Positions 51,893 through 59,231 of a stretch of 64,000 nucleotides of DNA are shown here, piece by piece. The stretch is from Wenjunlia tyrosinilytica. GTDB lineage: Bacteria > Actinomycetota > Actinomycetes > Streptomycetales > Streptomycetaceae. The first letter of the stretch is position 1; the number at the start of each line of letters is the position of its first letter. The notes beneath the pieces are model-generated. The model saw nothing but the letters and a program-made list of their open reading frames with translations, did not search any database and was not told where the DNA came from. The stretch covers positions 62,001-126,000 of the forward strand of contig NZ_BMMS01000003.1 of NCBI RefSeq assembly GCF_014646055.1, written 5' to 3'. A program made the position numbers and the translations under genes.

Positions 51893-55114
<3,222 letters not shown>

Positions 55115-55338
55115 CGGTGCTCCTTCATCTGCGCCCGTGCGTTTGCCTCACGCAGATCTTCCCACGATTCGGGCGGGCGCCCGCGCCCCGTCCAGGGTGC
55201 GGACCGGCCCGACGGCCGGAGCGGGGAACGGTCGACCACCCCGGCAGGCACCCGGGGCGCCGGACTGGAGCGGGAAGGGCAAGACGGCCGGGGCGCCCGA
55301 GTGGAGCGGACGGGCACGGCGGGCCCGACGAGGCGCCC

Positions 55339-55890
55339 GGGCACCCGACGAGGGCGCGGCCACGCCGACCGGGCACCGGGCGGGGGCGGGACGGCCACGG
55401 CGACCGGGCGGCGGACAGCACGCCCACCGGCACGGTGGCCCGGCAAGGCGACCGGGCACCGAACAAGGGCGAGACCGCCACGGCGACCGGGCGGCGGACA
55501 GCAGGCCCCCGGCAAGGCGACCAGGGCCCCGGACAAGGGCAGGACCGGCAAGGCGATCAGGCACCAAGAGGCAGGCCCACCAGCACGACAGCCCGACAAC
55601 CCCCGCCCAGGCACCAGACGAAGGCGAGACCACCACGGCGACTGGGCAGCGGACAGCAGGCCCACCGGCACGAGCCCGGCAACCCGCCCAGGCACCGGAC
55701 AAGGGTGAGACCGCCACGGCGACCCGGCGCCGGACAGCACGCCCAACCAGCACGACAACCCGACAACCCACCTGGGCCCCGGACAAGGGCAGGACCGGCA
55801 AGGCGGTCAGGCACCAAGAGGCAGGCCACCGGCACGACAGCCCGGCAAGGCGGCCGGGGACCGGACAAGGGCGGGACGGGGCGGCGCGGT
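55339..55890. repeat. degenerate tandem array of about seven ~82-bp units, A-A-B pattern
   Basis: The 797 bp from 55115 to 55911 hold no credible gene. Units begin at about 55372, 55455, 55525, 55610, 55691, 55775 and 55857, spaced 70-85 bp. A-type units share GACCGCCACGGCGACCGGGC and GCGGACAGCA; B-type units (55525, 55775) share GGACAAGGGCAGGACCGGCA, GGTCAGGCACCAAGAGGCAGG or close forms. The order is A-A-B-A-A-B-partial, with a short decayed copy at 55339. Unit lengths are not multiples of three, so the open frames on both strands are not evidence of coding. The flanks (55115-55338) are GC-rich with weaker resemblance to the repeat. Confidence 0.85.
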
Positions 55891-55911
55891 CGCCCCAAGG
55901 TGTGCCGGGCG

Positions 55912-56241
55912 CTAGTTCGGTGACTGGTCCGGTGTCCGGCCGGGGGGCGGTTCCGGGGCCTCGCTTGTGGGGGCGCCGTATGTCTGCCCCGCCGCAGGCG
56001 CGTAGCTGCCCAGGTAGTGGCTGCCCGGGCGCTGCCCGTACTGGGCGGCGGCGTGGACGGGTCGGCCCGACCGGACCGCCCTGCGGTACTGGATCTTCCG
56101 CACCAGCTTGAACACCCAGGTCGCGACGACGGCCAGCGCGACGAGTCCCAGCAGCGTGAGCGCCAGCCAGTGCGGCAGGAAGGACAGCACGACTGCGAAG
56201 ATCTTGCTGCCGATGGACGCCTGCAGGGTGTGCCATTCCAT
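55912..56241 (-). CDS. small membrane protein of unknown function
   Basis: A 109-residue protein. Residues about 13-45 (FAVVLSFLPHWLALTLLGLV onward) form one long or two short membrane helices, followed by a basic segment (KLVRKIQYRRAVRSGR) that would face the cytoplasm. The last 50 residues are Pro/Gly/Tyr-rich and probably disordered. The ATG at 56241 is preceded by GGGGGAGC. It lies between the repeat array and the tetR gene. No family recognised. Confidence 0.65.
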   Translation of the reverse strand: MEWHTLQASIGSKIFAVVLSFLPHWLALTLLGLVALAVVATWVFKLVRKIQYRRAVRSGRPVHAAAQYGQRPGSHYLGSYAPAAGQTYGAPTSEAPEPPPGRTPDQSPN

Positions 56242-56295
56242 TGAGCTCCCCCTCCGGATACGGAAAACGCGTCCGGATCCTAGCGCCCGTCCCCG

Positions 56296-56871
56296 TCAGC
56301 CGCTGCTCGCCCCCCGAGCGAGCAGCAGGAGCGCGTCGACGAGGTCCGAGGCGGGTGAGCCGGTGGCCAGGCGGCGCAGTTGGAGGCCGAAGACGAGGGC
56401 GACGGCGGTGCCCGCGACCCGCTCGGCCTCGGGCACGCCGAGCCCGCCGAGGATCCGCGCGGCCAGCCGGTCGTAGGCGGCGAAGCACTCGGCCGCCGCG
56501 GTGCGCAGCCGCTCGTCCCGGCCGGCCTGGACGTACAGCTCGAAGGGCGCGATGTGCGTGCTGTCGAACTCCGTGCCCCCGGCCACCTGGGCGACGGTGG
56601 CCGCGGCCCCGTCGAGGTCGATCCCGTCGGAGCGGCACAGGTCGGCGAGCTCGGTGAAGCGCCGGGTCTCCTCCCCGACGAAGTGCAGCAGGCTCTCGCG
56701 CAGCAGCTCGTGCTGGGTCTCGAAGTGGTAGGTGACCGTCCCCAGGGAGACTCCCGCCTCCTTGGCGATCCGCCGGTTGGTGACCCCGGCGAGGCCGTCC
56801 TGGCCGATGATGCGCAGGACGGCGTCGATGATGCTCTGCCGGGTGTCGGCGGGCTTGGACATGCGGATCAT
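56296..56871 (-). CDS. TetR-family regulator
   Basis: A 191-residue repressor with an N-terminal helix-turn-helix (about 24-55: VTNRRIAKEAGVSLGTVTYHF) and a helical ligand-binding domain. The HTH is of the typical TetR form with Tyr/His at the end of the recognition helix. It starts 7 bp after the amidase stop, in the same operon. The 16-bp palindrome before the amidase is the likely operator, giving autoregulation plus control of the divergent dehydrogenase. The start may instead be the ATG at 56862. Confidence 0.9.
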   Translation of the reverse strand: MIRMSKPADTRQSIIDAVLRIIGQDGLAGVTNRRIAKEAGVSLGTVTYHFETQHELLRESLLHFVGEETRRFTELADLCRSDGIDLDGAAATVAQVAGGTEFDSTHIAPFELYVQAGRDERLRTAAAECFAAYDRLAARILGGLGVPEAERVAGTAVALVFGLQLRRLATGSPASDLVDALLLLARGASSG

Positions 56872-56878
56872 TGTTCCA

Positions 56879-58381
56879 TCAGCGTCCCGGCTCCATCCCG
56901 CGAAGGGCGGGGCGGCTCTCGTACCAGCGGCGGTCGGCCTCGAGCTGGGCGGCGAGGGAGACGAGGAGTTCCTCGCTGTTCGCCGGGCCGAGCAGTTGGG
57001 CGCCGACCGGCAGCCCGTCGCGGGTGAAGCCCGCGGGCACGCTCATCGCCGGCCAGCCGAGCACATTCCACGGCCATGCGTAGGGGCAGGCCGCTGTCAT
57101 CGCCTTGTCCGTCCGCCAGGCGCTCAGATCGTCGAAGGCGCCGATGCGCGGGGGCGGGGCGGCGGACGTCGGGGTGAGCACGATGTCGTACGAGCGGTAG
57201 ATCCCGCCGATCCTGCGGTGCTGGCGGGGCTCGCGGGCCCGGGCGAGGCGCAGGACGGGCCCGGCGAGACGTCTGCCGGTGCGCGCGGCGGCGCGGGTGC
57301 GGGGGTCGAGCAGGCCGGGCTCGGGGTGCAGGGCGGCCAGTTCCGCGACCCCCGCGGTGGCGCGGGCCACCAGGCTGGGCCCGATCAGGCCGTAGCGCGG
57401 CCTGGCCTCCTCGACGTCGTGCCCGAGGCGGGCGAGCGCCTCGGCGAGGTCGGCGACCGCGCGGCGCACATCGGGGTGCGCGGTGGCGCGGGTGCCGGTC
57501 AAGGGCGGCCGCCACGCCAGGGCGATGCGCAGTCGGCCCGGCTCCCGGCGGGCGGCCTCCCGGGCGTTGATGGGACCGGGCCGGTGCAGATCTTTCGGAT
57601 GGGCGCCGAGGACGGTGTCCAGCAACAGGGCCGCGTCGCCGACGGTACGGGCCAGCGGTCCACTGACGGCCAGGCCGTTGAAGGCGTCGCTGTACGGGTG
57701 CAGGGACACCCGCCCGCGCTGCGGCTTGATGCCGACGAGATGGGTCCAGCCCGCGGGGATGCGGATGGATCCGGCACCGTCGGAGCCGAGCGCGGCCGGG
57801 ACGAGTCCGGCGGCGACGGCGGCGGCCGAGCCGCCCGAGGAGCCGCCGGGGGTGTGGTCGGTGTTCCAGGGGTTGCGGGTGGCACCGAAGGCGGGGCCCT
57901 CGGTGAAGGGCCACTGGCCGAGCTCGCAGGCGTTGGTCTTGCCGACGATCACCGCCCCGGCCTCGCGCAGCCGCCGCACCGGCTCGGCGTCGGCGGACGC
58001 GGGGCCGATCTCGCCCCGGCAGCCGAACAGCGTCGGCAGTCCCGCGACATCGGTGTCGTCCTTGACCGCCACGGGCACCCCGAGCAGGGGCCGCCGCACC
58101 AGAACGTCGTGCGCCGCCCCCGCCCCCGCTCCCGCGGCGAGTGCGCGGTCGGCCTTCTCGGCCTCCTCCAGCGCGGCTTCGGCGCGAAGGCACCGGAAGG
58201 CGTTGATCGTGTCCTGGGTGGCCTCGATGCGCTCGAGCGACGCCCGGACCAGGGCCACCGAGGTGGTCCGGCCCTCGGCCAGGGCTCGGGCGCACTCGGC
58301 GAGTCCGGTGGGACGGGCCGACGCGGTGGGTCCGGTTGAACCGGTGGGGCCCGGTATTCCCATGGATTCGGCTGTGGACAC
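56879..58381 (-). CDS. amidase signature-family hydrolase
   Basis: A 500-residue Ser-cisSer-Lys amidase. The triad is Lys107 (VPVAVKDDTDV), Ser181 (GGSSGGSAAAVA) and nucleophile Ser205 (SDGAGSIRIPAG). The first 25 residues are a Pro/Gly/Ser-rich leader. Substrate cannot be predicted; fatty-acid amides, aryl amides or peptides are all handled by the family. The GTG at 58381 is chosen because the conserved part follows. It is co-transcribed with tetR and divergent from a short-chain dehydrogenase. Confidence 0.9.
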   Translation of the reverse strand: MSTAESMGIPGPTGSTGPTASARPTGLAECARALAEGRTTSVALVRASLERIEATQDTINAFRCLRAEAALEEAEKADRALAAGAGAGAAHDVLVRRPLLGVPVAVKDDTDVAGLPTLFGCRGEIGPASADAEPVRRLREAGAVIVGKTNACELGQWPFTEGPAFGATRNPWNTDHTPGGSSGGSAAAVAAGLVPAALGSDGAGSIRIPAGWTHLVGIKPQRGRVSLHPYSDAFNGLAVSGPLARTVGDAALLLDTVLGAHPKDLHRPGPINAREAARREPGRLRIALAWRPPLTGTRATAHPDVRRAVADLAEALARLGHDVEEARPRYGLIGPSLVARATAGVAELAALHPEPGLLDPRTRAAARTGRRLAGPVLRLARAREPRQHRRIGGIYRSYDIVLTPTSAAPPPRIGAFDDLSAWRTDKAMTAACPYAWPWNVLGWPAMSVPAGFTRDGLPVGAQLLGPANSEELLVSLAAQLEADRRWYESRPALRGMEPGR

Positions 58382-58401
58382 GGTCGCCTCCCCTCTCTAT
58401 C

Positions 58402-58417
58402 GTTCGTTCGAACGAAC
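58402..58417. promoter_or_regulatory. 16-bp TetR-type operator palindrome
   Basis: GTTCGTTCGAACGAAC is perfectly palindromic and sits in the 58-bp gap between the divergent amidase and dehydrogenase starts. Size and symmetry fit a TetR dimer. The tetR gene lies at the end of the amidase transcription unit. Confidence 0.75.
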
Positions 58418-58439
58418 AGGTCCTCGGGAGGCTACTCGT

Positions 58440-59231
58440 ATGCGCATCACCGGAACAACCGTCCTGCTCACCGGGGTCACCGGCGGCATCGGCCGGACGA
58501 TCGCCCGGGACCTCGCGCGAAAGGGGGCGAAGTTGGTGATCTCCGGGCGGCGCCCCGAGGCTCTTGGGCCGATCGCCGCCGAGCTCGGCGCCCGCGCCGT
58601 CACCGCCGATCTGGCCGACGCCGACCAGGTGGCCCACCTCGCCGAGGCCTGCGGGGACGCCGACATCCTCATCGCCAACGCCGCTCTGCCCTCCAGCGGC
58701 GACCTGCTCGACTACACGCCTGGCCAGGTGGACCGGGCGCTGACCGTGAATCTGCGGGCCCCGGTCATGCTCGCCCGCCTGCTCGCGCCACGCATGGTGG
58801 ACGCGGGACGCGGCCATGTGGTGTTCGTCGGCTCGATCTCCGGAAAGGCCGCCAGCAAGTCCTCGTCCCTGTACACCTCGACCAAGTTCGGGCTGCGCGG
58901 CTTCGCCCATGGCTTCCGCCAGGACCTGCACGGCACGGGGGTCGGGGTCTCCCTCGTCCAGCCCGGATTCGTCCGTGACGCGGGGATGTTCGCGGCCACG
59001 GGCGCGACCCCGCCCGGCGGTGTGCGCACGGTCTCCCCCGAGCAGGTGGCGGCGGGCGTCATCCGGGCCATCGAGCGGGACCTGTGCGAAGTCAACGTCG
59101 CCCCGCTGGAGTTGAGGCTGCTGAGCGCGATTGCCGGGCAGTTCCCGGCATTCGCCGCGATGGTGCAGCGCCGCTCGGGCGCGGAGCGCACCATCGGCCG
59201 GATCGTGGAAGCCCAACGCGAAAGCCGCTGA
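58440..59231 (+). CDS. short-chain dehydrogenase/reductase
   Basis: A 263-residue Rossmann-fold oxidoreductase. The cofactor motif TGVTGGIG is at 11-18, the NAG-like motif is ANAA (79-82), and the catalytic set is Ser132, Tyr145 and Lys149 (YTSTK). An Arg-Arg pair after the second strand (SGRRPE) suggests NADPH. The ATG at 58440 has GGGAGG upstream. Its divergence from the amidase around one operator suggests both act on the same compound, which is unknown. Confidence 0.92.
   Translation: MRITGTTVLLTGVTGGIGRTIARDLARKGAKLVISGRRPEALGPIAAELGARAVTADLADADQVAHLAEACGDADILIANAALPSSGDLLDYTPGQVDRALTVNLRAPVMLARLLAPRMVDAGRGHVVFVGSISGKAASKSSSLYTSTKFGLRGFAHGFRQDLHGTGVGVSLVQPGFVRDAGMFAATGATPPGGVRTVSPEQVAAGVIRAIERDLCEVNVAPLELRLLSAIAGQFPAFAAMVQRRSGAERTIGRIVEAQRESR

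Follow-up and report, generated by a model that had tools for sequence, protein, structure and literature searches.

In the spacer between the gene of a 109-aa small protein and aroC of Wenjunlia tyrosinilytica, we found a degenerate tandem array of ~82-bp units. It is probably a private, non-coding minisatellite that was born in this spacer and then decayed, likely without a specific function. The array is ordinary in kind and extreme in degree. The features that matter here, given as positions of the window (the whole analyzed stretch of 64,000 nucleotides), are:

53930-55114, minus strand: aroC, chorismate synthase (TIGR00033, 451.5 bits; cut-off 212.2)
55156-55204, minus strand: aroC promoter-like module, GTCC-N7-GGAC-N24-GTGGGAAGAT, also in 34 of 56 relatives' spacers
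55241-55338, no strand: more degenerate 35-36 bp repeats with 2% T that prolong the array towards aroC (repeat family D5 and composition)
55339-55890, no strand: core degenerate array of ~82-bp units (six and a half) in the order A-A-B-A-A-B
55355-55592, no strand: block 1 of the trimer duplication (u1 and u2 of type A, u3 of type B)
55593-55839, no strand: block 2 of the trimer duplication (u4 and u5 of type A, u6 of type B)
55840-55881, no strand: truncated unit u7, about half length
55912-56241, minus strand: 109-aa small protein, between aroE and aroC in each of the 31 Streptomyces loci found with it
56296-59231: TetR, amidase, and SDR-like cassette between aroE and the 109-aa gene

At the level of the units, TRF gave periods of 83 bp (55357-55522) and 81 bp (55525-55877). 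Copies of the main repeat family (D1) started at 55355, 55438, 55508, 55593, 55674, and 55758, with spacings of 83, 70, 85, 81, and 84 bp and an extra 62% copy at 55323, and a second family (D2) gave the final unit spacing of 82 bp. Together, the two families reproduced exactly the spacings of the original prediction, which had counted seven units: six are full, and the seventh is only about half a unit. A tandem array implies off-diagonal structure in a self-comparison, and this was present, with 822 self-similar 24-mer pairs at a lag of at least 25 versus a mean of 10 and a maximum of 26 in 60 dinucleotide shuffles. By plain autocorrelation, the region as a whole did not stand out clearly from its shuffles: the value was 0.434 at lag 238, and the maxima of the shuffles averaged 0.40 and reached 0.44.

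The order A-A-B-A-A-B and the duplication of a block of units, both proposed beforehand, were upheld by the identities of u3/u6 and u2/u5. Allowing gaps, these were the closest pairs (0.93 and 0.87, pairs with the short u7 aside), and ungapped identities were 0.88 for u3/u6, 0.87 for u2/u5, and 0.74 for u1/u4. Once aligned, the trimer blocks were identical at 200 of 232 bases, with 21 gap columns. Gapped identity across types was 0.70 for u1/u3 and 0.72 for u4/u6, yet 0.84 for u2/u3, and u1 was no nearer to u4 (0.80) than to u2 (0.81) or u5 (0.80). Since the u1/u4 pairing is not distinctive and u2/u3 are this similar, the case for a trimer duplication comes mainly from u2/u5 and u3/u6. Without gaps, the copies of the array are 62-88% alike, and the most divergent units stand at 62-65%.

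TRF also detected a weaker sub-period of 35-36 bp that extends to about 55241, and the aroC-side flank contains a 22-nt repeat (family D5, 91%) at a spacing of 36. Within the units, few shuffles were as good as the 35-bp sub-period in u1 (8/500), u2 (8/500), and u6 (7/500); it was weak in u5 (44/500) and not above shuffles in u3 (168/500 as good) or u4 (156/500). We infer a neutral course of events, in which local slippage would have expanded a ~35-bp founder, T-free by chance, into ~82-bp units by duplication, a trimer of these units would have been duplicated later by unequal exchange or slippage, and the copies would then have drifted apart. Against a founder of ~35 bp, the sub-period is clear in only three of the six units.

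At the locus level, aroE, the 109-aa gene, and aroC are neighbors in all 31 Streptomyces loci, which were picked by the 109-aa protein, so all of them carry its gene. Their spacers between the 109-aa gene and aroC are short (125-271 bp vs. 797 bp here) and lack the array. For further relatives, 30 loci were taken from 61 genomes; among the 29 relatives with an aroC locus in this set, the spacer before aroC measured 103-545 bp in 25, the other four being left out because aroE lay outside the stretch. The 109-aa gene was found in one of these 29 loci (L066; tblastn, E 1e-8), and the genome of the congener, with an aroE-aroC spacer of 183 bp, gave no match to the protein; thus, this gene is not universal. 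The protein itself had no family above cut-off (the best was DUF6203, 16.2 bits vs. 26.7). The genes 3' of aroC on the minus strand are presumably aroK, aroB, and aroQ.

The array and the cassette sit on opposite sides of the 109-aa gene. In the cassette, the amidase (PF01425, NF004717) and the TetR gene (PF00440, PF17940) matched families above cut-off, and the NCBIfam matches listed for the SDR-like gene were all below it. The original prediction had suggested an insertion hotspot shared by cassette and array, which is doubtful with the 109-aa gene between them. Since this gene separates the two and is adjacent to both aroE and aroC in the 31 loci, two separate events seem more likely, and the gene order suggests that the cassette is probably an insertion of its own.

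In its own genome, the array matches well only at its own position; the next best match covers 60 bp at 77% identity (E 6e-4). A dispersed repeat family (MIRU or a transposed satellite) was rejected, as no related units were found at several sites, in a search of its own genome and among the arrays of 864 kb, and a plasmid or phage origin was rejected because the array matched no plasmid or phage record. Short matches appeared in 39 of 60 relatives at E 0.001. Of these, the best seven (39-124 bp, 73-87% identity) were either megabases away from aroC or on a different contig, and we take them as low-complexity matches. The array remains without a recognized repeat family, in agreement with the earlier statement that no named repeat was seen. 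Among the matches listed in a search of titles and abstract openings of open-licence papers, neither this array nor T-free intergenic arrays in Streptomyces were reported.

The plus strand of 55341-55890 contains 22.2% A and 1.3% T, compared to 13.2% A and 14.1% T in the whole window, and the T-poor sequence goes beyond the core array to about 55241. Every stop codon contains T, as does its complement, so DNA without T has no stop in any of the six frames; in 55303-55889, the six frames together hold three stops. GC by phase was flat in the array (0.77/0.77/0.76, vs. 0.51/0.77/0.96 in aroC), differences between copies were spread over the phases with none favored, and four of the long frames over the array had no Pfam match above cut-off. 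One of these four matched H-NS weakly (13.5 bits; cut-off 25.6), in the portion of the frame that lies beyond the repeats. Coding on either strand was rejected because of the flat codon phase, the frame-breaking unit lengths, and the lack of an above-cut-off match. This bears out the non-coding nature of the array and the view that its open frames on both strands are a by-product of near-absent T, not genes. The same three observations speak against a gene remnant that once encoded a low-complexity hydrophilic protein, in which T-free codons would give small or hydrophilic residues. Some other highly skewed repeats of this genome have periods divisible by three, as such a remnant might have, but we consider it very unlikely here. 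Minisatellites are head-to-tail arrays of non-coding units of roughly 10-100 bp. The array is likewise head-to-tail and non-coding, as in bacterial intergenic minisatellites, and it has neither the frame-keeping unit length nor the codon periodicity of a protein-coding repeat.

The array is located between co-directional genes, so it may be transcribed, which would suit a structured or regulatory RNA of repeated domains. However, its predicted folding was no better than 20 dinucleotide shuffles on each strand (z +1.08 and +1.15), and Rfam gave no match inside the array; three matches below the gathering score fell within 56042-56331, beyond it. The structured RNA suggested in the original prediction did not hold up, and we give an RNA of this kind hardly any credence. 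A G-quadruplex array was also rejected, with one motif on the plus strand and none on the minus strand (shuffles average 0.33 and 0.29).

The genome of W. tyrosinilytica is rich in such arrays. A census of contigs C1, C2, and C3 (L079-L118) plus the window, with gene calls from a simple purpose-written caller, yielded 69 entries of non-coding arrays of at least 60 bp in 864 kb, two of them being the aroC-side array. Five sampled relatives gave 6 in 400 kb (the congener) and 5, 9, 15, and 4 in 200 kb each. The density was about 8 per 100 kb here vs. 1.5 in the one congener, about fivefold (p 1e-6; p 5e-6 against all five), in a comparison where one relative is equally rich, the stretches are unmatched for position, and the window is counted in. 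The 31 Streptomyces loci (364 kb, copies of one region) had two arrays. Periods were multiples of three in 54% of the arrays of this genome and other values in 32 of 69, and a third of the arrays are perhaps missed coding repeats. Only 9 of 2346 pairs of entries were similar, weakly, and one of these was the aroC-side array with itself; thus, the arrays appear to be locally born and not one spreading element. Another array (L104:15768-16048), of about three 97-bp units with a 99% match in a convergent spacer, is probably young.

Within these 864 kb (40 stretches of 20 kb plus the window), the aroC-side array has the strongest A/T asymmetry of all 500-bp windows with >12% A+T (0.91; next 0.59). 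One A-free run of 142 bp lies elsewhere and exceeds the longest T-free or A-free run of the array itself (133 bp). T-free and A-free sequences make up 1.2 and 1.1% of non-coding 35-mers, and 82-mers with no more than one T account for 0.17%. If founders were about 35 bp, this share of ~1% predicts roughly one or two T- or A-free founders in a set of about 67 arrays, and a founder effect is the simplest account of the T poverty.

Several observations do not sit easily with the minisatellite explanation. T poverty persists in the aroC-side flank and across copies that have diverged, G-to-A changes outnumber C-to-T changes (14 vs. 5, p 0.036, uncorrected and with direction by majority), and C/G transversions are frequent (17 column events). 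In favor of the minisatellite, the transition columns, 23 A/G and 5 C/T events, agreed with the rates in the other arrays (expected C/T share 0.285, p 0.29). A strand-asymmetric mutation process, such as cytosine deamination on the strand displaced in transcription, could have made or kept the plus strand T-poor, and the G-to-A excess points that way. In the other arrays, oriented A over T (the aroC-side array and those with equal A and T omitted), rates were equal (65 G-to-A vs. 60 C-to-T, p 0.24), and transcription-linked deamination was rejected as a general cause of skew. By inspection of the arrays of this genome, the A-rich strand also occurs in both orientations to the flanking genes, and we regard such a process as quite unlikely to explain the array.

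A further point against a plain minisatellite is the skew of the arrays of this genome as a set, which is far above that of same-length segments and mildly above that of one-unit segments. It exceeded 0.6 in 35% of the arrays vs. 1% of same-length non-array segments, an excess to be expected when a short unit is repeated. Compared to segments of one unit length, the mean percentile was 0.599 (n = 69, both aroC-side entries included), with 23% of arrays above the 90th percentile; for periods not divisible by three, the excess was not significant (0.543, n = 32, z 0.85). By analogy with the proposal for Borgs, a lineage-wide repeat-generating process might favor strand-asymmetric (T-free or A-free) templates, and the array would be one product. 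It would be based on the fivefold density relative to the congener and the mild A/T-asymmetry excess per unit length, and we find it improbable.

As for the minisatellite we favor, its effect is most likely limited to a longer spacer, with the promoter-like module before aroC left in place. In relatives (loci L018-L078), this module precedes aroC with rigid spacing as GTCC-N7/8-GGA(C)-N23-25-GTGGGAGGAT-like sequence, in 16 of the 31 Streptomyces spacers found by the 109-aa protein and in 18 of 25 spacers from other relatives. Here, some 36 bp separate it from the T-poor repeats, and the distance between its -10-like part and the aroC start is 51 bases, compared to 81-133 bases in the Streptomyces loci with the motif and 47-113 in other relatives. 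Simple scans for sigma-70-type promoters and for terminators gave no match in 55000-56400. The module may be the aroC promoter, possibly an operator plus -10 region.

The array occupies the gap from the stop of the 109-aa gene to this module. Taken with its top-ranking asymmetry, this might indicate a functional spacer or insulator that shields aroC from upstream read-through or offers candidate sites for nucleoid or regulatory proteins. However, units are as low as 62-65% identity, the relatives examined manage without the array, and many unrelated arrays occur elsewhere in this genome. We therefore see a specific function as unlikely.

Mycobacterial MIRU/VNTR loci are intergenic minisatellites of actinobacteria with units of tens of bp, and MIRU units are related between loci. 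Unlike these, the aroC-side unit has no good match elsewhere in its genome. In a survey of bacterial satellites, those of Clostridium difficile are called unique and mutually unrelated, and Streptomyces coelicolor is tabulated with 38 satellites, 4.20 per Mb, a density obtained with other thresholds and not directly comparable with our census (Subirana and Messeguer 2019, PMC6749651). As described there, they are local tandem arrays like ours, which differs in being degenerate, trimer-structured, and nearly T-free. In a paper on Borgs, tandem repeats are locally born, locus-unique, partly intergenic, and A-enriched, and their frequency in some genomes far exceeds that in related or host ones (PMC9879509). 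Going by that text, the aroC-side array shares local birth, locus uniqueness, and an A-enriched strand with them. In contrast to the diverged units found here, those of Borgs are recent and nearly perfect, and the enrichment in A or T differs between arrays of the W. tyrosinilytica genome.

As a single locus, this array matters little. It calls for caution in annotation, since six-frame open stretches in such DNA reflect missing T rather than genes. Moreover, it is an extreme one among the many arrays of this actinomycete genome, and the filled site can be compared with relatives that have a short spacer, which could serve the study of how long minisatellites are born and decay in high-GC bacteria.
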